Shown piece after piece: positions 8,404 to 21,666 of a stretch of DNA of 39,006 nucleotides. The notes under the pieces are model-generated. The model searched no databases. It saw only the letters and a program-made list of their open reading frames with translations, and had not been told where the DNA came from. The DNA lies in NCBI GenBank assembly GCA_029862925.1, contig JAOTWJ010000015.1, positions 1 to 39,006 of the forward strand. The letters are read 5' to 3'. The stretch comes from Gemmatimonadota bacterium (GTDB lineage Bacteria; Gemmatimonadota; Gemmatimonadetes; Gemmatimonadales; GWC2-71-9). Every line of letters begins with the position of its first letter. The stretch's first letter is position 1. A program made the position numbers and the translations under genes.

Positions 8404-11400
8404 CTACCCGCCCGTCGGCGCGAGCCCGTGCGGCGCGACTTCGCTGGCACCCTGCTTCGCGGCGACGACCCCGCCTTCCGCTCTCCGCTTCTCCGGCCCG
8501 CGCTCGAGCAGCATGTACAGCGTCGGGGTCACGGTCAGCACGAACAGCGTCGAACTCGCGAGTCCGCCGATCAGCGCCAGGCCCAGAGCGTTCCAGATGT
8601 TCGCATCCGCCGATTCGCTGAACAGCACGAGCGGCAGCAGCCCGAAGATGGTGGTGAAGCTCGTCATCAGGATGGGACGCACTCGCTCGAGCGTGCCGCG
8701 AACCACCGCATCGCGCAGTGCGAGTCCGTACGTCCGCCGCAGCAGGTTCACGTGATCGACGAGGAGAATGGCGTTGTTGACCACGATGCCGCCCATCATG
8801 ATCACGCCGATATACGCCTCCCGCGTGAAGCTCGCCTCCATGAAGTAGAAGATCAGGAACACGCCGACGAGCGCCATCGGGACCGTGAGCAGCACACAGA
8901 AGGGCTGGCGCACCGACTCGAACAGCGCGGCCGTGACCATGAAGATCAGAATGAGGGAGACGGCCAGCACCTCGTAGATCTGTTTCTGCTCGTCGCTCGA
9001 CCAGCGCCACTCCTGCTCGCCCTCGATGGTATAGCCCTCGGGGAGTCGGGTGTTGGCGATGACGGCGTCGCGTACGCGGTCGCCCAACTTGGTCGGGCCA
9101 CGGAACTCGTAGCTCACGTAGCGCTGGTACTGCTGGTTCTCGCGCTCGATCCGGTTCAGCACCTCGCGTTCGCCCACCGCCGCCACGTCGCCCAGGCGCA
9201 CGCCCTGGCCCGTCGGGGTCTGGAGCAGGATCTCCGGCAACTCGAGCACGTCCACCTGCTCGTTGTCGGCGAGCTTGACGTCGAACCGCAGCTCGTCGCC
9301 GGCGACGCGGATGAAGCCCCGGCGCACGGTCCCCTGGACGGCCGCGGCCACCTGATAGACGACATCCTGCGCGGTGAGTCCGTGCAGGCCGAGCCGCTCG
9401 CGGTCCAGTGACAGCACGAACTCGCTCGCCTTGTCGCGCGTGTACCACCCGCCCGCCGAGTTGATGTCCACGTCCCGAATGCGGGAGAACCGCCGCAACC
9501 GTCGGCCGAGATCGTCGGCGATCTGCCGCACCGTTTCGTAGTTGTAGCCCAGCACCTTGATGGAGTAGTTGGGTGGGGTCGAGCCGCCGCCGTAGAACGA
9601 CGGACCGTAGCCGAACACGCGCACCTCCGCCCCGCCAAACTGATAGCTGTACGCCAGCATCTGTTCCTTGATGGCGGCAGGCACCTGCGTCTGTTCGAGC
9701 GAGTCGGGGAACGTGACCGTGATGTTCGCGAACTGGGGCAGCACGCGCGTGGTGAATCGCTCGATTTCCGGCATCTCCCGGAGTTTGGCTTCGAAGAAGC
9801 GGGCGAGCTCGTCGGTCCGATCCAGCTCCTCGCCGCGCGGCAGTTGAATCCGGATGTTGATGAACGTCTGCTGTCCCCACCAGGCACGCCACAGCACCCC
9901 GCGGGTGACATACTTGTCGAACACGCGATAGGACCCGCCCAGACACGCGAGGGCGATGACGATCGCAAGCCACGGCCACCGGAGGGTGAAGCCGAGCAAG
10001 CCGGCGTAGACGCGGACGTAGAGGGGGGAGTCGGGAGGGCGGAGCGGGTCCGCCGGCCCGCCGGATGGCGTGCCGTCTGCGCCGCCGACCTCGCCCCGGG
10101 ACCGCGCTTCGCTCCCTGCTCCCCCGAGGATCTTCGCCGCCAGCGCCGGAATGAACGTGAACGCCACGAACAGACTGGCCACCAGGCTCATCCCGACCAC
10201 GATCGCGAGCGGAATGTAGTAATCCCGCAGCTCTCCCTGGAGGTAAACGAACGGGACGAACACGATCACCGTCGTGAGGGTCGCGGCCAGGATGGCGAGC
10301 ATCACCTCCTTGGCCCCGCGCTCGGCGGCCACCGCGGCCGTCGCCCGTTCCTCGGCCGTCCCGCGCCTCCCCTTCCGGTAGATGTTCTCCAGCACGACGA
10401 TGGCGTTGTCCACGATCAGCCCGAAGCCCATGGCGAGCCCCATGAGCGTGAGCACGTTCAGGCTGAGGCCGCCGAAGTAGATCAGGTTGAGCGCGATCAG
10501 GATGGAAAACGCGATCGTCGCGAACACGATGCCCGCCGACCGGAACGACCGCAGGAACACGAGCAGCACCACGAAAACGACGACCGCGGCGATCAGCGCG
10601 CGGATCCGGAGGTCCGTGAGTGCCGTGCGGATCGCGTCGCTCTCGTCATCGTCGAGGAGCAGGCGGACGCCCGGCGGATGGAGGGTCTCGAGCTGGTCGA
10701 GGCGCAGCTTCACGCGGTCTGCCACCGCGACCGTGTTGACGCCGGTCTCCTTGTGGATCTGGAAGGCGACCGCCGGCTGCCCGTCGATCCGGTAAAGGCT
10801 ACGCGGCTCTTCATACGTGTCGTGGACGGTGGCCACGTCGCTCACCCGCACCAGCCGGCCGCGATCGGTGAGCAGCGCGGTGCGCCGGATCTCATCCGGA
10901 GACTCGGTGCGCTGGCGGATCGCGAGCGTGCGCTGCACCCCGTCCAGCTCCACGACCCCGGCTTCCGCCACGGTTTCCAGCTCGAGGATCCGCTGCCACA
11001 CGACCTGCGGAGAGAGGCCGAGGGCCCGGGTCTTCGTGTCGTCGAGCACGATCTCGAGCACCCGGTCGCGCCCCCCGTAGACTTCCACGCCGGCCACTCC
11101 ATCGAGCTGCAATAGCTCGGGCAGGAGCTGGTCGTCGACGTGCACGCGGAGGGCCTCGAGCGTGTATGGGCCGGTGAGCGTGTAGCGCAGGAAGGGGCGG
11201 GACTGCTCGCGGAACTCCTCGGGCACGTACGGCTCGATGCGCGGCCCGAGCACGCCTTCCGGCAGCTCGTCTTCGACGGCGGCCAGCCGCTCCGAAAGCT
11301 CGAGGCGCGCGAAGTCCATGTCCGTACCGCGGGCGAACTTCACGGTGACCTGCGCGCGCGCCTGCCCGTACTGCTCGCTCGAGATGGACGAGATTTCCTC

Positions 11401-11625
11401 GACGCCGTGCACCTGCTGCACCGCCGCCTCGAGCGGCGCGGTGACGAACGCCTCCATGGCTTCGGGCGAGGCGCGGCTCCAATCGGCGCCTACCGAAAGC
11501 TGGGGCAACTCCGTGTCGGGCAGGAGCTCGATCGGGATGTTGCGCCAGGCCGCAATCCCCAGCAGCGCCACGCCGAGGTAGACCATCGAGACGGCAACCG
11601 GGCGGCGGATGGAGAGGCGGATCAT
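8404..11625 (-). CDS. RND family efflux transporter permease (second of two in operon)
   Basis: MIRLSIRRPVAVSMVYLGVALLGIAAWRNIPIELLPDTELPQLSVGADW..., GFGLIVDNAIVVLENIYRKG, second-half GVIMMGGIVVNNAILLVDHVN, FGLLPLVLF. ATG at 11625 overlaps upstream stop. Confidence 0.95.
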   Translation of the reverse strand: MIRLSIRRPVAVSMVYLGVALLGIAAWRNIPIELLPDTELPQLSVGADWSRASPEAMEAFVTAPLEAAVQQVHGVEEISSISSEQYGQARAQVTVKFARGTDMDFARLELSERLAAVEDELPEGVLGPRIEPYVPEEFREQSRPFLRYTLTGPYTLEALRVHVDDQLLPELLQLDGVAGVEVYGGRDRVLEIVLDDTKTRALGLSPQVVWQRILELETVAEAGVVELDGVQRTLAIRQRTESPDEIRRTALLTDRGRLVRVSDVATVHDTYEEPRSLYRIDGQPAVAFQIHKETGVNTVAVADRVKLRLDQLETLHPPGVRLLLDDDESDAIRTALTDLRIRALIAAVVVFVVLLVFLRSFRSAGIVFATIAFSILIALNLIYFGGLSLNVLTLMGLAMGFGLIVDNAIVVLENIYRKGRRGTAEERATAAVAAERGAKEVMLAILAATLTTVIVFVPFVYLQGELRDYYIPLAIVVGMSLVASLFVAFTFIPALAAKILGGAGSEARSRGEVGGADGTPSGGPADPLRPPDSPLYVRVYAGLLGFTLRWPWLAIVIALACLGGSYRVFDKYVTRGVLWRAWWGQQTFINIRIQLPRGEELDRTDELARFFEAKLREMPEIERFTTRVLPQFANITVTFPDSLEQTQVPAAIKEQMLAYSYQFGGAEVRVFGYGPSFYGGGSTPPNYSIKVLGYNYETVRQIADDLGRRLRRFSRIRDVDINSAGGWYTRDKASEFVLSLDRERLGLHGLTAQDVVYQVAAAVQGTVRRGFIRVAGDELRFDVKLADNEQVDVLELPEILLQTPTGQGVRLGDVAAVGEREVLNRIERENQQYQRYVSYEFRGPTKLGDRVRDAVIANTRLPEGYTIEGEQEWRWSSDEQKQIYEVLAVSLILIFMVTAALFESVRQPFCVLLTVPMALVGVFLIFYFMEASFTREAYIGVIMMGGIVVNNAILLVDHVNLLRRTYGLALRDAVVRGTLERVRPILMTSFTTIFGLLPLVLFSESADANIWNALGLALIGGLASSTLFVLTVTPTLYMLLERGPEKRRAEGGVVAAKQGASEVAPHGLAPTGG

Positions 11626-12833
11626 CCCCGCTCCCGTTCCAGTCGATACATCCGCACGTATTGCACGCCCAGTTCGTCCTCCCACGTCCCCAACACGTAG
11701 TCGCGGCCGATTTCGAGCACGCGGACCGAGGGCGGCGTCTCGACGGTGCCCCGCAGCAGGCCGTCCGGCGCGAAGACCGCCCACCGGCGAACGGAATCCG
11801 ACGGCGTGAACGTATCCAGCACCCAGAGGTTGCCGTCCGGATCCGTCTGCAGCTCGGCAAAAGCCGGCAGCGTCGACGGAATCGGCATCTCCCGGAACAT
11901 CCGCTCCTGACGTCGCCGCCAGTTCTCGTCGGCGTCCTCGAGTCGGTCCGCCTTGACCCGTTCCACGTCGTCCGGTGTCACCGCCCGCGCCGGGCGGGTC
12001 GCGCGGACGATCATGGCGAGCACACCCGTCGAGTCGCGCCGCTCGATCTCGTACCGATCGGTCGCACCCACCCAGAAGCCGGTCCGCGTCACCGCGGACA
12101 GCGTCGTCCGCCCGAAGGGCAGGCTGGAGGCCCAAACCGAACTGCGATCGCCCTGCACGTAGTACTCCCACGACGGCCAGCGGCCGATGCTGTCGAGCAG
12201 ACGCCCGTCCGGGCCGAACCGGAGGAACGGCGCGGTGTCGCGCACGACGCCCGACATCTCTCCAGGACCGAAGACGAAGCCGCGCGTGGCGAGGACCGTG
12301 CCGCTGCCGAATACACCAAGCACGTTGGGGAGCCCGCCGGCGAACTCGATCGCCACCGAGCGCACGAATCCCCGGTCCGGCGCGAACACCGAGAGGCGCC
12401 GGAGATTCCAGTCGTAGGTGACGAGCGTGTCGCCCGCCACGACGCGCACCAGGCTCAGCCCCTCGAACTCCCCCGGTCCACCGCCCTTGCGACCCAGGCT
12501 CGACAGGTGCCGACCGTCGGGCGCGAAGAGCCGCAGTTCCTGCGTGCCGCCGTTGGCCACCACGATTCGGCCGTCCGTGAGCCGCGTGACGCTCTGGAGA
12601 CGGTCGAACTGATACGCCTCGTCGCCCTCGAGGGCCCCGATGGCCAGGAGCGGCGTGGCGGCCACCCTCCAGGCCACGACCGGCGGAGCCCAGCTCGCGT
12701 ACTCGACGATCCGCACGCCGGCCGAGTCCCGGATGGCAGCGGCGGGGGCGGCAGGCCGGTCGCCACAGGCGGCGACGACGGCGACCGTCGCCAGGAGCGG
12801 TGGGAGACGACGGCGCGCGGGGCGGCGCCTCAT
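11622..12833 (-). CDS. 6-bladed beta-propeller (NHL-like) lipoprotein
   Basis: MRRRPARRRLPPLLATVAVVAACGDRP (lipobox VAAC), DSAGVRIVEYAS, LGRKGGGPGEFEGL, repeated short beta motifs. ATG at 12833 overlaps upstream RND stop; its own stop overlaps the next RND start. Confidence 0.85.
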   Translation of the reverse strand: MRRRPARRRLPPLLATVAVVAACGDRPAAPAAAIRDSAGVRIVEYASWAPPVVAWRVAATPLLAIGALEGDEAYQFDRLQSVTRLTDGRIVVANGGTQELRLFAPDGRHLSSLGRKGGGPGEFEGLSLVRVVAGDTLVTYDWNLRRLSVFAPDRGFVRSVAIEFAGGLPNVLGVFGSGTVLATRGFVFGPGEMSGVVRDTAPFLRFGPDGRLLDSIGRWPSWEYYVQGDRSSVWASSLPFGRTTLSAVTRTGFWVGATDRYEIERRDSTGVLAMIVRATRPARAVTPDDVERVKADRLEDADENWRRRQERMFREMPIPSTLPAFAELQTDPDGNLWVLDTFTPSDSVRRWAVFAPDGLLRGTVETPPSVRVLEIGRDYVLGTWEDELGVQYVRMYRLERERG

Positions 12834-15800
12834 GATTCCCCCGCGGGTTCGAGCTTGCCCAGGCCCAACGTCGCGCGCCACTTGCCGCGGACGTCCTCGA
12901 TCACGGCATACGCCACCGGGACCACAATCAGCGTGAGTGCGGTGGAACTCAGCAGGCCGCCGATTACGGCGAGCGCGAGCGGGGCACGCAGATCCGCGCC
13001 GCGCCCGATGCCCAGCGCCATGGGCAACAGGCCGAGCACGGTCGTGACGGTCGTCATGACGATCGGCCGTAACCGCAGCCGGCCGGCTTCGAGGATCGCC
13101 GCCTTGAGTGCCAGCCCCTGCCCCCGGAACTGGTTGATGAAGTCCACCTTGATGATGGCGTCGTTCACGACGATGCCCACGAGGATGACCACCCCGATCA
13201 GGCTCATCGTGCTGAGGCCCGCGCGCCCGAGAAACAGGGCGAGTGACGCGCCGACGGTGGCGAGCGGGACGGCCAACAGGATAGTGAACGGATGCACGAA
13301 CGACTCGAACTGCGCCGCCAGGATCATGTACACCAGCAGCATGGCGAGTCCGAGGGCGAACGCGAGATCGCGGAAACTCCGCGCGCGTTCTTCGTTCGCG
13401 CCACCGATCTCGTAGCGCACGCCGCGCGGCGGCGGCAGCTCGGCGAGGACGGCGCGCGCGTCCCCGACCGCTTCGTCGAGTCCGCCGCGGGCGACATCGG
13501 CGAAAATCTCGACGACCCGTCCCTGATCGCGGCGTCGGACCTCCGCCGGCCCGAGCTGCTCCTGGGTCTCGATCAGCTCCCGCAGCGGGATCCCATTGAT
13601 CTGGAGGGTCCGCAGCGTCTCCAGTGAGCGGCGCTCGGCTTCGGGCAGCCGGACGACCACCGGGACCTTCTCGTCGAAATCCACGTACTCCGTCGCCATG
13701 GCCCCGCGCATGTACTGTTCGACGGTGCGGGCAATGAGGCGCGGCTCGATCCCGTACGCCGCCGCGCGGTCACGCGCGATCTGCACCCGAATCTCCGGTT
13801 GCCCCTCCTCCGAGCGCAGGCGCACGTTCGCGAGCCGGTCGGCCCGCCCCAATCGCTGCTCGGCTCGGCGCGCGTAGGCCCAGAGCTGATCCAGATCGTC
13901 GCCGCGGATCCGGATCGAGAGATCCGCGTCCGCACCGCCCAACAGCCGGCCGAGCGCCGTGGCCGTGCCCGTTTCCACGGCGACGGCATCGGGCGGAAAG
14001 GCGGCGAGTTGTGGGCGCAGCCGGCTGACCGCATCGGCGGTGGACGCGCCTCCCCGCAACCGCACTTCCACGCGCGCCGTGTTCAGTCCGCTTTCCTCTT
14101 CCTCGACCCCGGCCACCGCTCCCTGCCGACCCACGCGGGTGAACACGGCCACCACAGCGTCATCGCCGCGCACCATCTCCTCGATGCGCACGGCGGCGCG
14201 CGTGGTTTCCTCGAGCGGCGTGCCCCGCGGCAGCTCGAGGGCGACGGCAAACTCTCCCTGGTCCACGTCCGGCAGCACGTCACGCTGGAGGCTGGCGCCG
14301 AGCCCCAGGCCCAGCACGAACAGGGCACCGGCCACGGACAGCACCCTCCCCCGATGGGCGAGCGCGCCCTCGAGGATGCGGTGGTACCAGTCGGCGAAGC
14401 GCGCGAAGCGGCGGTCGAAGGCGCGGAACGTCGGGCCGAACAGCCGCGCGATGGCCCGGCCCGCCCCGCCGGCCACGGCACCACCCGCACGCCGCACGAT
14501 CCCCGCTCGACCCGCGGGGGCCACGCCCCATCGGGCCGCCATGGTCGGCAGCAGAGTGATGGCCACCACGAGGCTCGCGAGCAGGGCGAACGCCACGGCG
14601 AACGACAGGTCGCCGAACAGCTCGCCGGCCACCCCGCGCACGTAGACGATGGGACCGAACACGGCGATGGTCGTTAGGGTCGAGGCCGTGATCGCGCCCT
14701 GCACCTCTTCGGCACCACGGGCGGCGGCCTCGAGCGGCGTGGCCCCGAGCTCCCGATGCCGAAACACGTTTTCGAGCACGACGATCGAGTTGTCCACCAG
14801 CATGCCGACGCCGAGCGCGAGCCCGCCGAGACTCATGATGTTGAGGGACACGTCGGCCACATCGAGCAGGGCAAATGTCGTGACCACCGAGATGGGGATC
14901 GCGAGCGCGATGGCGACCGGATAGCGCGCGTCGTGCAGGAACAGGAACAACACCAGGAACGCGAGCACGCCACCCAGCACGAGGGCCTGGACCACATTGC
15001 TGATGGCATCGCTGATGAATCCCGCCTGCGCAGTGGCCACCTCGATGCGCGTTTCGGGGTACTGCGCACGCAGCTGGTCGAGTACCCGCTCGACCTCCTC
15101 GGAGACCCTCACCGTGTTGGCGCCCGCGTCCTTGAACAGCAGCAACCCCACCGACTCGTGCGCGTTGTACCGGGCCAGCGACTCACGCTCCTTGAAGCCG
15201 TCGTCGATCGCCGCGACATCGCGCAGCAGCACGAGGTCGCTCCCGGCCCCGCCCGCGCGCCGGCCGACCGGGACGTTACCGATCTCCTCGACGGCCTGGA
15301 ATTCGCCGAGGGTGCGGAGTGCATAGCGGTAGCGTCCCCGTCGGATGGTGCCGCCCGGAGCGCTCTGGTTGGCGGCATCGAGCGCGCGGGCGACGTCGTC
15401 CACCGTGAGTCCGTAGGTCTCGAGCAGCCGCGCGTCCACCTCGACGTGGATCTCGCGCTCCAGTCCGCCGGCGAGCGCCGCCTCCGCAATGCCGTCGATC
15501 TGCTCGAGCCGTCGTTTGAACACCGATTCGCTCAGGTCCTTGAGAGCCGCGAGATCGCCGCCGGCTCCCGAGACGGACACGGCCATGATCGGATCCGCAT
15601 CGGGATCAGTGCGCAGTACGACCGGCCGGGTCGCCAGCTCGGGCAACTCGTCGCGGATGTTGTCGAGTTGCTCGCGCACGTTCAGGACCGCGAAGTCCAT
15701 GTCCGTGCCCCAGGCGAACCGGAGGGTCACGAGCGAGACCCCTTCGCGCGACACGCTCTCGACCCGCTCCACCCCGGTGACTCGCCCGGCCGCGCGCTCG

Positions 15801-16000
15801 ATGCGTTCCGAGACAAAGCGCTCGACCTCGGTGGGGCCGACGTCGGGGTAGCGGGTGTACACGACCAACCGCGGATACGCGATCGAGGGCAGCAGGTCGA
15901 TGGGGAGACGCACGAACGAGATGCCCCCGATGAACACGACGGCGGCCACGAGCATCGCCACCGCGACCGGCCGCCCCACGGAGAGGCGCGGGATGGACAT
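12830..16000 (-). CDS. RND family efflux transporter permease (first of two in operon)
   Basis: MSIPRLSVGRPVAVAMLVAAVVFIGGISFVRLPIDLLPSIAYPRLVVYTRYPDVGPTEVERFV..., GVGMLVDNSIVVLENVFRHRE, second-half GVVILVGIVVNDAIIKVDFINQ. Confidence 0.95.
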   Translation of the reverse strand: MSIPRLSVGRPVAVAMLVAAVVFIGGISFVRLPIDLLPSIAYPRLVVYTRYPDVGPTEVERFVSERIERAAGRVTGVERVESVSREGVSLVTLRFAWGTDMDFAVLNVREQLDNIRDELPELATRPVVLRTDPDADPIMAVSVSGAGGDLAALKDLSESVFKRRLEQIDGIAEAALAGGLEREIHVEVDARLLETYGLTVDDVARALDAANQSAPGGTIRRGRYRYALRTLGEFQAVEEIGNVPVGRRAGGAGSDLVLLRDVAAIDDGFKERESLARYNAHESVGLLLFKDAGANTVRVSEEVERVLDQLRAQYPETRIEVATAQAGFISDAISNVVQALVLGGVLAFLVLFLFLHDARYPVAIALAIPISVVTTFALLDVADVSLNIMSLGGLALGVGMLVDNSIVVLENVFRHRELGATPLEAAARGAEEVQGAITASTLTTIAVFGPIVYVRGVAGELFGDLSFAVAFALLASLVVAITLLPTMAARWGVAPAGRAGIVRRAGGAVAGGAGRAIARLFGPTFRAFDRRFARFADWYHRILEGALAHRGRVLSVAGALFVLGLGLGASLQRDVLPDVDQGEFAVALELPRGTPLEETTRAAVRIEEMVRGDDAVVAVFTRVGRQGAVAGVEEEESGLNTARVEVRLRGGASTADAVSRLRPQLAAFPPDAVAVETGTATALGRLLGGADADLSIRIRGDDLDQLWAYARRAEQRLGRADRLANVRLRSEEGQPEIRVQIARDRAAAYGIEPRLIARTVEQYMRGAMATEYVDFDEKVPVVVRLPEAERRSLETLRTLQINGIPLRELIETQEQLGPAEVRRRDQGRVVEIFADVARGGLDEAVGDARAVLAELPPPRGVRYEIGGANEERARSFRDLAFALGLAMLLVYMILAAQFESFVHPFTILLAVPLATVGASLALFLGRAGLSTMSLIGVVILVGIVVNDAIIKVDFINQFRGQGLALKAAILEAGRLRLRPIVMTTVTTVLGLLPMALGIGRGADLRAPLALAVIGGLLSSTALTLIVVPVAYAVIEDVRGKWRATLGLGKLEPAGES

Positions 16001-16030
16001 TTACGCCCGGCCCCCCGTCTTCCCCGCCCG

Positions 16031-16091
16031 GCGGTTGGGCGGTTGGGCGGTTAGGCGATCTGGCAGGGCCGCCGCACGAGCCGCCCAACCG
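16031..16091. repeat. Short CCCAACCG-type tandem octamers with a distal inverted copy
   Basis: gcggttgg gcggttgg gcggttag at about 16031-16054 and inverted ccgcccaaccg at 16081-16091, between the tolC-like stop and RND start. Confidence 0.6.
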
Positions 16092-16110
16092 TCTGAGTGC
16101 TCAACCGCTC

Positions 16111-17469
16111 TCATCGCCCCACCTCCCGCCCAAGGCGCTCCTCGAGCGTCACCGTCGCCGCGATGAAGCTGTAGCGGGCGTTGATCAGTTGCCGCTCCTC
16201 TTGGGCCGCGCGGTCGATGAGGAGTTGGAGATTCGCGAACGTAATGGCGCCGATCGCGTAGCGCTCCCGGGCGAGTTCCAGCCGCTGGTTGCTCAGATCG
16301 GAGGCCCGTTCGGCGAGCGCCAGGGCGCGGCGTGCGTTCTGCACGTCGATCAGGGCGGCCCGGACTTCCCGCTCCACCTGCAGGCGCCCGGCGCGCAGCG
16401 ACTCTTCCGCATTGCGAGCGTCGGCGCCCGCCTGCGCAATTCGCGCCGAGGTCCGGAAGCCGGTGAACAGCGGGTAGCTGAGGCTCAGATTGAAACTGAA
16501 GGTGCGGTTCTTGGGCGCGAAGTCGAACAGCGCCTCGTAGCTCGCGAGATTCGTCGACCGGTTGTAGCCGGCGCCGATCTGGATCGTGGGCCACCGCCCG
16601 CCGCGGGCGGCGGCGGCACGCAGGTGCGCCGCGTCGGCGGCCGCGTCGAGCTGCCGCAGACGCGGGTGCGCCGCGAGCGCACTGACGACCAGTGAATCCG
16701 CGTGCAGCACCGACGGGTCCCACACGGGCGGCAAGTCGCCCTCCACCTCGAACGCGATGGGCTCCGTGATGCCGAGGTACTCCCGCAGCAGCAATACGGA
16801 CTTGGCGGCGTCGCCCCCCGCCCGCTCGAGCTGCAGCTCCGCGGTCGCGATGTCGGCGTCCGCGCCCAGCATGTCCTCCTGGGTGGCGCTGGCCACCCGA
16901 AACAACCGCTGTGTGTTGTCGCGTTGCTCCCGCGCGGACGCGAGCAGCCGTTCCTCCAGCGCAATCAGCTGACGGGACCGGAGCGCGTCGTAGAACCGCC
17001 GCGTGGTCTCCGCATCCAACCGATCGCGGGTCGACCATCGCACCGCCTCCGCCGCCGTCCGACTGGCCCGCGCCGCCCGGAGCGAGCTCAGGTTGTTGAA
17101 CCCGTCGAACAGCGTCAGGGTGGCCGAGAGACTCTGGTTCGAGCTGCTGCCCTTGAAATCGATGGCCTGTGGCAGCTCGACCGGTCTGCCGAAGTCGTCC
17201 TGACCCGTTACCGTCCGGGAATCCGACCCGAAGAACGACATGTTGGCCGACACGGTCGGCAGAAACGCCCCCCACCCCGCCCGTACCTGCGCCCCTTGGG
17301 CGCGGGCCGAGTTGACGGCCTGGCGATACTCGGGGTTCCGCTCCCGGGCGATGGCGATGGCGTCCTCGAGCGTGAGCCGGGCCGGCACCGGCGGGGGCGC
17401 GGGCTCCTGTGCGACGGCGGACGGCGCGCCCAACAGCGTCAGGATCAGGGCCGCGGTGCCTGGCTTCAT
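16111..17469 (-). CDS. TolC family outer-membrane protein
   Basis: Signal peptide; LTLEDAIAIARERNPEYRQAVNSARAQGAQVRAGWGAFLPTVSAN; SFNLSLSYPLFTGFRTSARIAQA; RYAIGAITFANLQLLIDRAAQEERQLINARYSFIAATVTLEERLG. Confidence 0.94.
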   Translation of the reverse strand: MKPGTAALILTLLGAPSAVAQEPAPPPVPARLTLEDAIAIARERNPEYRQAVNSARAQGAQVRAGWGAFLPTVSANMSFFGSDSRTVTGQDDFGRPVELPQAIDFKGSSSNQSLSATLTLFDGFNNLSSLRAARASRTAAEAVRWSTRDRLDAETTRRFYDALRSRQLIALEERLLASAREQRDNTQRLFRVASATQEDMLGADADIATAELQLERAGGDAAKSVLLLREYLGITEPIAFEVEGDLPPVWDPSVLHADSLVVSALAAHPRLRQLDAAADAAHLRAAAARGGRWPTIQIGAGYNRSTNLASYEALFDFAPKNRTFSFNLSLSYPLFTGFRTSARIAQAGADARNAEESLRAGRLQVEREVRAALIDVQNARRALALAERASDLSNQRLELARERYAIGAITFANLQLLIDRAAQEERQLINARYSFIAATVTLEERLGREVGR

Positions 17470-18629
17470 TGCGGCCTCCCGCCGGCGGCACGGACGTCTT
17501 CCACCAGCCGAATCCTAGCATCGTGTATCAGCGTGTAGTGCCCGTCGATGAGCACCACCTCGCCCGGCCGCACCATCTCGGTCTCGGCACTCGGCACGAG
17601 TTCCACCAGCGAATCGTTCGCAAGGCCGGTCGTGACGTACCGCCACTTGGCAAGGCCGATCTGCCCCTCGCCCTCGAAGACGAACAGCATCGAGCGGCGG
17701 TCGCGTTCCAGCACCGCACTGCGCGGGACGAGCGTCCGGTCGGCGAACTTACGCGCCTCGAGAGACACGCGTGCGTACATCCCGGGGAGGATGCGGCCCT
17801 CCTGATTCGGGATGTTCACCGTCACCTTTGCCGTCCGCGTCTCCCGCTCGATCATCGGATTGACGGTCTCGATTTGGCCGACGAACCGCTCCCCGGGAAA
17901 CGCCGCGAAGGTGACCACCGCGCGCCGGCCCTGGGCGAGCAGCCCCACCTCGCTCTCGAGCACCTGTACCTCGATGCGGATCGGGTGCAGGTCCACGACG
18001 GTCGCCAGGTCGTCGCCCACGCGCACCGTCTGGCCGGGCACCACCCGCACCGAGGCGACCCGTCCCGTAAAGGGCGCCGTGACCCGCGTGCGCCGGAGCC
18101 GCAGTTCCGCCTCCTGGACGGAGACTTGGGCTTCGTCGAGCCCGCTCTTGGCGCGCGCGACCCGCTCCCGCTCGGCGCGCACCGCCGGATCCTCAATGCG
18201 GTCATCGAACAACGTGAGCTCGCGGAACGAGGCCTGGGCTCGCGCGAGATTCGCGTGCGCCCGCGCCAGCCCCAGGGCATACTCCGCCGTGTCCACCAGC
18301 AGCAGGAGATCGCGCTCGCGCACGAAGCTGTTGTCGCGCACGCGGACCTCAGTCACCCGACCCTCCACCTGGGCCAGGAGCTTGGCCTCGCGGCGGGCCG
18401 CGGCCTGTGCGGCGGCGGAAACCGAGAGGACGAGCGTGTCGCGGACCACGACCGCGCCCTCGACGGGAATCGCGATGTCGGTGGAAAACGCCTCGGCGGC
18501 CGATGTGGCGGGACGGTCGTCGGCTTGCGCGGAGTCACCGCCGGCGGCGTCGCCGCCGCGGAACCGCGAGCACCCGCTCAGGACGACCGCGGCCGCGAGG
18601 GTGACACCAAGACTGCGGGAACGGATCAT
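17466..18629 (-). CDS. RND efflux periplasmic adaptor (HlyD/MFP family) lipoprotein
   Basis: MIRSRSLGVTLAAAVVLSGCSRF (lipobox LSGC), lipoyl-like VEGRVTEVRVRDNSFVRERDLLLLVD, coiled-coil, TAPFTGRVASVRVVPGQTVRVGDDLATVVDL. Stop overlaps TolC start. Confidence 0.93.
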   Translation of the reverse strand: MIRSRSLGVTLAAAVVLSGCSRFRGGDAAGGDSAQADDRPATSAAEAFSTDIAIPVEGAVVVRDTLVLSVSAAAQAAARREAKLLAQVEGRVTEVRVRDNSFVRERDLLLLVDTAEYALGLARAHANLARAQASFRELTLFDDRIEDPAVRAERERVARAKSGLDEAQVSVQEAELRLRRTRVTAPFTGRVASVRVVPGQTVRVGDDLATVVDLHPIRIEVQVLESEVGLLAQGRRAVVTFAAFPGERFVGQIETVNPMIERETRTAKVTVNIPNQEGRILPGMYARVSLEARKFADRTLVPRSAVLERDRRSMLFVFEGEGQIGLAKWRYVTTGLANDSLVELVPSAETEMVRPGEVVLIDGHYTLIHDARIRLVEDVRAAGGRPQ

Positions 18630-18703
18630 GGGCACGTGGGGGTTCGGAGGCTCGCCGGCCTCGCGGGTGGCGGACATCGCTCGTGAACGGAAGATGCCCG
18701 GGT

Positions 18704-18726
18704 GTCGGCCGTCTGTCACGGCCGAC
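18704..18726. promoter_or_regulatory. Perfect 9-5-9 inverted repeat upstream of the efflux operon
   Basis: GTCGGCCGT ctgtc ACGGCCGAC; no T-tract on either side. Confidence 0.6.
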
Positions 18727-18791: not shown

Positions 18792-19874
18792 TCACTCCGG
18801 GATCAGCTTGAAGATCCGGACGTCGTCCGATGAGTGGCGGAAGAACAGCCCATTCCGAATCACGCCCCCGAATCCACCATAGCGCTGGTCGGCTTCCGCG
18901 GGCCACTTGATCGCCTGCGCGCGGTTGGTGCGCGGATCCACTAGGAGCCCGATGGCCCCGACGTTGGGAAAGAGGAGAAACAGCCGGCCGTCGTCGGTGA
19001 CAGACAGGTCCGTGATCCCGGGGCGAGCCCGACGCGTATCCCCTCCAAAATCCCCGAGGACGAGTGCATCCTGCTCGATCAGTCCGTCCAGGATGCGCTG
19101 CGGCAAGCGCCGGACGGCGACACGCTGCCCGGTCGGACTATACTCCACCAGAGACCCGAGCATCTCGTCGTACACATGAACGGCACCCGTACCCGCCACA
19201 ACGAACTGGACATCGCCATGGATGATCGGGCGAAACATCGCACGGAACTCCTCCGGGTATAGATCCCACGGTCGCTCGGCGAAGGGACGCCACGGGCCGG
19301 CGGTATCGCCCCTCAGGAAGTAGTTACGGTCGTCGTAGGAGCAAACGAAGAGGCTGCCGTCCGGCCCCCACTGCACTTCCGTGAAGCCGTGCGGCACGGC
19401 GAGTGACCGCACGAATGCCCCATCCGACCGGAAGATGGATACGCGGGCGTTCGTGCCCTCACTGACGGCATACAGATCCTGCCACACTGCCAAGGACATG
19501 GCCCCGCGCAACTCGCCGGGCCCGGCACCCTCGCGTCCGAAGTATGCCTCCGGCCGGAACTGCTCGTCGAGACGCACGATCCGGTCGTTCCCGTTCTCGA
19601 GTACGAGCATGCGATCTCCGTCGAACACGAGGTCCGCCGCCCTGGCAAAGCCGAACTCGTCATTCTCGGAAGAGATGGGGGCCGCCGGCACCGATTCCTG
19701 AACGACGAGGGCGACGCGTTCGAGGGCAATGGGGATCGCGCCCTCGACGTGTGGTTCCCCACGGCTGCACGCCGGGACGCCCGCCGGCATCAGCGCCACC
19801 AGCACCGGAAGCAGACGGAAGACCGATTGTCGCGCTCGCATCCATGCCTGCATAGGGCTGTTCCTCTTCATCAT
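18792..19874 (-). CDS. 6-bladed beta-propeller lipoprotein
   Basis: Hydrophobic leader with VPAC; YFGREGAGPGELRGAM, repeated V.GD..LVLENGNDRIVRLDEQF, RVSIFRSDGAFVRSL. Start may be the internal ATG at 19853 (MQAWMRARQ), which has SD-like AGAGGA. Confidence 0.82.
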   Translation of the reverse strand: MMKRNSPMQAWMRARQSVFRLLPVLVALMPAGVPACSRGEPHVEGAIPIALERVALVVQESVPAAPISSENDEFGFARAADLVFDGDRMLVLENGNDRIVRLDEQFRPEAYFGREGAGPGELRGAMSLAVWQDLYAVSEGTNARVSIFRSDGAFVRSLAVPHGFTEVQWGPDGSLFVCSYDDRNYFLRGDTAGPWRPFAERPWDLYPEEFRAMFRPIIHGDVQFVVAGTGAVHVYDEMLGSLVEYSPTGQRVAVRRLPQRILDGLIEQDALVLGDFGGDTRRARPGITDLSVTDDGRLFLLFPNVGAIGLLVDPRTNRAQAIKWPAEADQRYGGFGGVIRNGLFFRHSSDDVRIFKLIPE

Positions 19875-19904
19875 GGGGCCCGGCCACGAATTCGACCGGG
19901 CCCC
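19875..19904 (-). promoter_or_regulatory. Intercistronic hairpin between small secreted protein gene and propeller gene
   Basis: Perfect 9-bp stem GGGGCCCGG (19875-19883) / CCGGGCCCC (19896-19904), 12-nt loop; no T run after it on the minus strand. Confidence 0.6.
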
Positions 19905-19920
19905 GTCGAGACGCTCCGGC

Positions 19921-20247
19921 TCACAGCTTCAGCACCTCACCGGTGCGGCAGTCCACCCTCACCATCTTGTCCGTGTTCTGATTCACGTACACGCCCACGT
20001 GGTACTGCTCGCTGATGGTCATCTCGGTCGAGCCCGACCCAATACAATCCCCCCCGGCGGTGATCGTGATCGTGCTGGTCTGCGTCACGAGGGATTGCGA
20101 CTGCAGCTCGTACGGATCCCCGGTCTGCCCGCCGACTGCGCTCTGCGGGCAATCGCTCGGCTCCGCCCACAAGACCCCGCCGCTCAACCCGAGCAGCGCC
20201 ACGGACAGGATCCCCGCCCGCACCAGGGTCGCAAGTCGCTTCAACAT
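19921..20247 (-). CDS. Small secreted Cys-containing protein (about 108 aa) of unknown function
   Basis: MLKRLATLVRAGILSVALLGLSGGVLWAEPSDCPQSAVGGQTGDPYELQSQSLVTQTSTITITAGGDCIGSGSTEMTISEQYHVGVYVNQNTDKMVRVDCRTGEVLKL; clear signal peptide, three Cys after the predicted cleavage, SD-like GGAGAT before ATG 20247. Confidence 0.75.
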   Translation of the reverse strand: MLKRLATLVRAGILSVALLGLSGGVLWAEPSDCPQSAVGGQTGDPYELQSQSLVTQTSTITITAGGDCIGSGSTEMTISEQYHVGVYVNQNTDKMVRVDCRTGEVLKL

Positions 20248-20526: not shown

Positions 20527-21666
20527 ATGCGACCCATGACTCGTTTGCCGCTTCTCGCTCTCGCCGCGACGCTGCTGGTCGCCCCCGCGCTCCACGCGCA
20601 GGCCATGCGTCCCACACCGCTCGGCACACCGGACGCCACCTTCGCCGAGCCCGTGACGGCGCCCATCGGGTTCCGGGTGCTCGCCGACGGCCGCGTGCTC
20701 CTCGCCGACAACATCGAGGGCACCGTCGCGGTGCTCGACTTTCGAACCGGTGCCATGACGCCCGTGGGTCGTCAGGGTGACGGCCCCGGCGAGTACGGCA
20801 TGCCCGGCCCGCTGTTCGGCGCCGCGGGCGACACCACGTACATGCTCGACATGGGGAACCGCCGGCTGCTCGTCATCACGCCCGACGGGCGCATCGCCGA
20901 CAACACGATTCCGCTCCGCAGTACGTCCGGATGGCCGATCCTGCCGCGGGGCGTGGACGCGGCGGGCCGCATTTACTTCGATCTCGCGGGCATCGTGATG
21001 CCCGGGCTGAACGAAGTCGCCGCCGCGGGTCGCGCCCCGCTGCTGCGCTGGGACCGGTCCGCGGATCGCATGGACACGGTGGCCTTCGTGCAGTTTCCTC
21101 CGCTGCCCCCGGCGGGCCCGGGCGAGATGCGCATCAGCATCGGTGGGGGCGCCTACCAACCGACGGACCAGTGGGCGGTCACGGCCGACGGCCGCGTCGG
21201 GCTCGCCCGAGCGACCGGCTATCGGGTCGAATGGCACGGCGGGGCGAGCCCGGTGGTCGGCCCGGAGGTGCGCTACGAGCCCGTGAAGATCGGCACGGCT
21301 GAAAAGAACGCGTGGGCCGATCTGATGGCGGCGCGCGGCATGGCTGTCGAGATCGAGAACGGCCGGCGCCGCACGCGTCGCCTTCCCCGTCCGGACATCG
21401 ACCGGATGGAGTGGCCCGAGGTGATGCCGCCGTTCTCCGGCCCGCGGGCGGTGCTTGCTGCACCGCAGGGCGAGCTGTGGGTGCTGCGCAGCCGGCCGGC
21501 CAACACGCGGGCCCGCGTCTACGACGTGTTCGACGGCCGGGGTCGCCTGGTTCGGCAGGTCAGTCTCGAGGGCGACCGCGCGGTGCTCGCGTTCGGGCCC
21601 GGTGCGGTGTACGTGGCCCGGACTGACGAGGACGATCTCGTGTGGCTGGAGCGGTACAAGATGTGA
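20527..21666 (+). CDS. Secreted 6-bladed beta-propeller protein
   Basis: MRPMTRLPLLALAATLLVAPALHAQA signal peptide; PVGRQGDGPGEYGMPG, DTTYMLDMGNRRLLVITPDGRI, VYDVFDGRGRLVRQVSL. Confidence 0.85.
   Translation: MRPMTRLPLLALAATLLVAPALHAQAMRPTPLGTPDATFAEPVTAPIGFRVLADGRVLLADNIEGTVAVLDFRTGAMTPVGRQGDGPGEYGMPGPLFGAAGDTTYMLDMGNRRLLVITPDGRIADNTIPLRSTSGWPILPRGVDAAGRIYFDLAGIVMPGLNEVAAAGRAPLLRWDRSADRMDTVAFVQFPPLPPAGPGEMRISIGGGAYQPTDQWAVTADGRVGLARATGYRVEWHGGASPVVGPEVRYEPVKIGTAEKNAWADLMAARGMAVEIENGRRRTRRLPRPDIDRMEWPEVMPPFSGPRAVLAAPQGELWVLRSRPANTRARVYDVFDGRGRLVRQVSLEGDRAVLAFGPGAVYVARTDEDDLVWLERYKM

Follow-up and report, generated by a model that had tools for sequence, protein, structure and literature searches.

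The locus described here raises the question of whether a small secreted cysteine protein and the beta-propeller lipoprotein encoded directly after it work together. Both genes lie in a stretch of 39,006 nucleotides from a Gemmatimonadota genome (the window; genome G000), and an earlier note on this DNA had proposed that they form an independent version of an arrangement known from Bacteroidota, with the small protein as ligand or substrate of the propeller. In Bacteroidota, NVEALA peptides (PF14055) adjoin six-bladed propellers of the BF3164/TolB-like or DUF5128 type. We know of no established function for small exported peptides beside propeller lipoproteins. The relevant features of the window are:

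18792..20247, minus strand: two-gene unit between a third propeller gene (prop3) and an RND adaptor gene; in relatives the same junction occurs without the pair
19921..20247, minus strand: gene of the small secreted protein, 108 aa, with a type I signal peptide and mature Cys 33, 68 and 100
19875..19920, minus strand: intercistronic hairpin between the small gene and the propeller gene, 12 pairs, loop of 6
18792..19853, minus strand: six-bladed NHL-type beta-propeller lipoprotein; the ORF is open from 19874, the most likely start is 19853
8404..18719, minus strand: RND efflux genes (adaptor, outer-membrane factor, two RND pumps), with a propeller at 11622-12833 between the pumps
20536..21666, plus strand: prop3, the third propeller, divergent from the pair; a distant paralogue outside the pair

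The two genes, their products and the intervening hairpin

As the earlier note described, a 108-aa secreted protein with three mature cysteines is followed by a propeller lipoprotein on the same strand, both genes being located on the minus strand. The GC content of the small gene by codon position (0.58/0.47/0.90) has the pattern of a coding frame. Pfam and NCBIfam yielded no match that names the 108-aa protein, and matches of small proteins to PepSY (E 0.26) and PA2794-like_C (E 0.015) were dropped as below the cut-off; the small-family profile described below now fills a protein family left blank by the annotation libraries. The diverged family to which it belongs carries C-x2-Y-I-S-G-G ... 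V-G-x-Y-x-M-x-D-G ... R-C-D as its pattern. Across 28 aligned members Cys33 never varies and Cys100 hardly does. The third residue, Cys68, is confined to the proteins of the window and of G020; all three cysteines are thus present in the window protein, as claimed before, but only Cys33 and Cys100 are conserved in the wider family. The AlphaFold model of the small protein, based on 28 sequences (pLDDT 77 overall, about 90 for the greater part of the mature protein), predicts a long beta-hairpin with short flanking strands, for which Foldseek returned no PDB fold match at E ≤ 0.001.

For the second gene, the ATG at 19853 is preceded by the Shine-Dalgarno-like AAGAGGAA and gives a better lipoprotein signal than a start at 19874, with VPAC as lipobox. 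The lipobox cysteine (Cys29) is nearly invariant among the aligned propellers and the invariant columns correspond to the NHL motif G-x-G-P-G-E; conserved active-site residues were not found in this alignment. The AlphaFold model (pLDDT 87, pTM 0.85) has its best Foldseek matches among NHL six-bladed propellers, while propeller enzymes (virginiamycin B lyase, peptidyl-alpha-hydroxyglycine lyase) and BtuG of Bacteroides (8ptf, 8blw) are returned as well. In Pfam the window propeller does not match PF17170 (DUF5128), whose cut-off of 22.9 bits is reached by its orthologues in G020 (23.9) and G163 (22.9), the window propeller representing a divergent subfamily. The BF3164/TolB_like family PF15869 gave no match for the window propeller and 10.7 bits for the orthologue in G006, compared to a cut-off of 29.2.

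The hairpin noted earlier between the two genes is real: its 9-bp stem (GGGGCCCGG/CCGGGCCCC) grows to 12 pairs on folding, with −32.9 kcal/mol and z −2.4, and no U run follows it. G020 (z −4.3) and G420 (z −3.5) have strong stem-loops in the corresponding position and G006 has a weaker one (z −1.9); these and the window hairpin are unrelated in sequence. G075, Palauibacter and the other loci tested show no hairpin stability beyond chance, so that the hairpin is not a general property of the pair. We infer that the intergenic stem-loop sets unequal expression of the two genes, which in one lineage would probably result in more small protein than propeller.

Linkage and inheritance of the pair

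A contig scan with the window small protein alone retrieved no relatives and a plasmid search was empty. One clear single-sequence homologue is present in G020, a member of another genus, whose small protein matches at 39% and whose adjoining orthologous propeller, in the same gene order, at 44%. The family was found by a propeller search of 395 Gemmatimonadota genomes and subsequent reading upstream, and a profile was built from the small proteins located there. Applied to the same 395 genomes without regard to gene position, this profile retrieved 29 strong copies (E ≤ 1e-10), so that homologues of the small protein do exist. Twenty of these are directly followed by a close propeller on the same strand, eight are second copies that come directly after that propeller, and one lies at the end of a contig, the close propeller of its genome beginning another contig. 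A close propeller is encoded in 29 genomes, including all 20 that have the small protein. Since the profile was built largely from propeller-adjacent copies, new members are the test that counts. Such members are most of the second copies, additional copies in G054, the copy in G056 and, most tellingly, that of G420: its small gene, not used for the model, was picked up by the profile and has a propeller directly downstream. A scan with a tighter alignment of the small family found 12 loci, several of them in Candidatus Palauibacter. Weak single-protein matches in G091, G364, G186 and G355 received no support from the family profile and were discarded.

The linkage anticipated by the earlier note is thus borne out, the association of the small gene with a six-bladed propeller being conserved across several Gemmatimonadota families. 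Among control genes of the same loci, 5 of 214 are preceded by an ORF for a small secreted Cys protein; four of these five are the family's own second copies, and after their removal the background rate is about 1 in 210. The corresponding count for propellers is 20 of 45, in which a few ORFs are doubtful and which, as the propellers were not drawn randomly, is not a frequency. Propellers of the same clade without a recognisable small gene occur in G058, G070, G153, G193, one of G017, and G181. The eight second copies mostly have no full propeller of their own directly downstream, and in some Palauibacter loci a second small copy follows the propeller. In G042 (L066, G042:C26, 4295-5049, minus strand) a fragment of a propeller also comes after the second small copy, which looks like a duplicate of the complete unit in the course of decay.

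The members from the window and G020 are distant from the remaining family. When both were excluded from the profile and the signal was removed, the rest-only profile scored G020 at E 1e-4 and the window protein at 2e-4, compared to 0.06 for the best of 1,000 shuffled decoys; hhalign of these two against the rest of the family gave a probability of 92%. Because of these scores, and because gene order and the two conserved cysteines agree as well, we take both proteins as members of the family.

In the window's own family the small gene was recovered in 2 of 102 genomes, namely G000 and G020, a count in which absences are soft since the genome search scores few candidates per genome. Matches to the window propeller below E 1e-70 in the phylum sample come from the same two genomes. 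The RND adaptor is kept at ≥58% identity over most of its length in 14 genomes, and 12 pair-less relatives were read upstream of it. The gap between prop3 and the adaptor measures 1,907 bp in the window, where it holds the pair, versus 196-506 bp in seven of the 12 pair-less relatives, which include the same-genus G422 and have neither pair gene between prop3 and the adaptor. As both genes are jointly missing at the same junction, the pair behaves as a two-gene unit. Mapped on the propeller tree, the presence of the small gene requires at least six changes compared to a shuffled mean of 10; it is clustered, yet has been lost or become unrecognisable several times. Among the Palauibacter small genes dN is smaller than dS in 42 of 45 pairs, with dN/dS of 0.56 for the mature part and 0.40 for the signal, and these copies are thus under purifying selection. 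Together with the codon-position GC, this establishes the coding conservation on which the earlier proposal depended. Distances between the small proteins parallel those between the propellers (Mantel r 0.94, 17 pairs), an agreement to be expected even from co-inheritance alone.

The RND genes are kept beside the pair in G020 only, without a propeller between the pumps, and are absent beside it in the other lineages. In Palauibacter the pair adjoins an ORF that we read as gyrB-like, so that the pumps probably do not belong to the module and the efflux genes are just a neighbour. A role tied to the RND pumps was set aside, given that they accompany the pair in two genomes only and that the same pump genes occur without it.

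Role of the small protein

Like the NVEALA pairs of Bacteroidota, the Gemmatimonadota loci place the gene of a small exported protein beside that of a six-bladed propeller lipoprotein, with multiple copies per genome. Unlike NVEALA, the window family has only two to three cysteines, two of them conserved around the predicted long beta-hairpin, and it belongs to another phylum. PF14055 has no match at E ≤ 1 in the window small protein or in any of 12 family members, and it detects nothing in any of 21 relatives, although a Bacteroides control was positive; the NVEALA motif is present in the leader region of none of the 28 aligned members. The best reading of these comparisons is that the pair is an independent version of the arrangement of exported small protein and propeller lipoprotein. 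Of the earlier proposal, the conserved linkage in another phylum and the apparent independence hold up, while the role as ligand or substrate is a putative one. A second, apparently unrelated small-protein family in another phylum argues that selection keeps the pairing itself. BtuG, a surface lipoprotein, is likewise an outer-membrane propeller lipoprotein; no gene for a TonB-dependent transporter was detected next to the pair, in which it differs from BtuG. To our knowledge, no small exported partner belongs to BtuG.

We conclude that the small protein and the propeller very probably work together. With a probability of about 0.55, the small protein would be the dedicated partner of the propeller in a conserved Gemmatimonadota envelope module, and it probably serves the propeller as a ligand or substrate within the cell envelope. 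In such a module, the small gene would give rise to a Sec-exported protein of about 60-110 mature residues, in which Cys33 and Cys100 probably form one disulfide that closes the predicted long, length-variable beta-hairpin. The second gene would supply a six-bladed NHL-type propeller that is membrane-anchored by lipid on its N-terminal cysteine. The small protein would then be exported, folded and disulfide-bonded in the periplasm and subsequently be bound or acted on by the anchored propeller, as a putative ligand, subunit or substrate. Given the two-gene unit, the predicted domain with its long hairpin and the natural absence of both genes from a relative in the same genus, the question of propeller binding is directly testable.

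The strength of this reading depends on how well the same data are explained otherwise. Propellers are common, six being found in the window genome, and adjacency might thus arise by coincidence; this is highly improbable, as the adjacency is kept across families against a control rate of about 1 in 210, and the neighbourhood survey refutes it. A possible, though less probable, explanation than dedicated partnership is that the two proteins take part in one envelope process and are simply co-expressed, without touching each other. Gene order would account for the linkage without binding, and some propellers of the clade have no small gene. Against this, the linkage survives very different contexts, RND pumps being the neighbours in two genomes and the gyrB-like ORF in Palauibacter, and gain or loss affects both genes jointly.

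Two further alternatives appear unlikely. The patchy distribution, the second copies, the fast divergence and the glycine-rich beta-hairpin of variable length would suit a secreted antagonistic peptide with the propeller lipoprotein as immunity or self-protection protein, but a toxin signature was not found, second copies occur without their own propeller and the small gene is under purifying selection. Immunity proteins, as far as we know, are not usually NHL propellers. We are similarly sceptical of the propeller as an enzyme or processing factor with the small protein as its substrate, in the manner of the methylamine and quinohemoprotein amine dehydrogenases, in which a small Cys-rich crosslinked subunit works with a propeller subunit. 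The general plan of a small exported protein and a propeller is shared, Foldseek also finds propeller enzymes, and unrelated Cys peptide-propeller loci of the phylum carry a CxxC protein next to them. The differences are that the mature window protein contains no Trp, so that a TTQ or CTQ cofactor cannot form, that only two cysteines are conserved and that the propeller is of the NHL six-bladed type. Moreover, neither maturation genes nor a CxxC gene were seen beside the window pair, and its propeller family lacks detectable conserved active-site residues. Dedicated partnership thus remains our preferred reading.

Other cysteine peptide-propeller loci in Gemmatimonadota

Further loci of related layout were observed in the phylum. 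In the window genome itself, L168 (G000:C278, 5877-7869, minus strand) encodes, in this order, a 71-aa six-Cys exported peptide, a propeller lipoprotein and a small membrane protein with a CPSC motif; the peptide is unrelated to the window small family and lies just upstream of the propeller, which scores 34 bits with PF17170. Three CKC peptides, likewise unrelated to the window small family, were found near a propeller in the relative G121. At L169 (G121:C74, 4286-9089), exported CKC peptides of 73 aa occur in tandem close to a secreted propeller, and a CGFC protein and a CxxCxxCC protein are encoded next; L170 (G121:C294, 4575-7278) has two further CKC peptides near another propeller. In L097 (G293:C10, 3913-5444, minus strand) a longer 8-Cys relative of the window family with a CPPYISGGPNNP motif lies 19 bp upstream of a diverged propeller. 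None of the Cys proteins from G000:C278, G121 and G293 matches PF14055.

As individual loci, from which no frequency can be derived, the cases in G000:C278, G121 and G293 support the idea of a recurring design. It is conceivable, although we hold it only tentatively, that several unrelated exported Cys proteins in the phylum each have a dedicated propeller lipoprotein receptor, and that this phylum-wide class of envelope systems, of which the window family would be one of at least three, arose independently of NVEALA as part of a design general among bacteria, by which signals are passed or peptides captured at the outer membrane. Another longer 8-Cys relative with the CPPYISGGPNNP motif is encoded at L096 (G042:C45, 4947-5450, plus strand).
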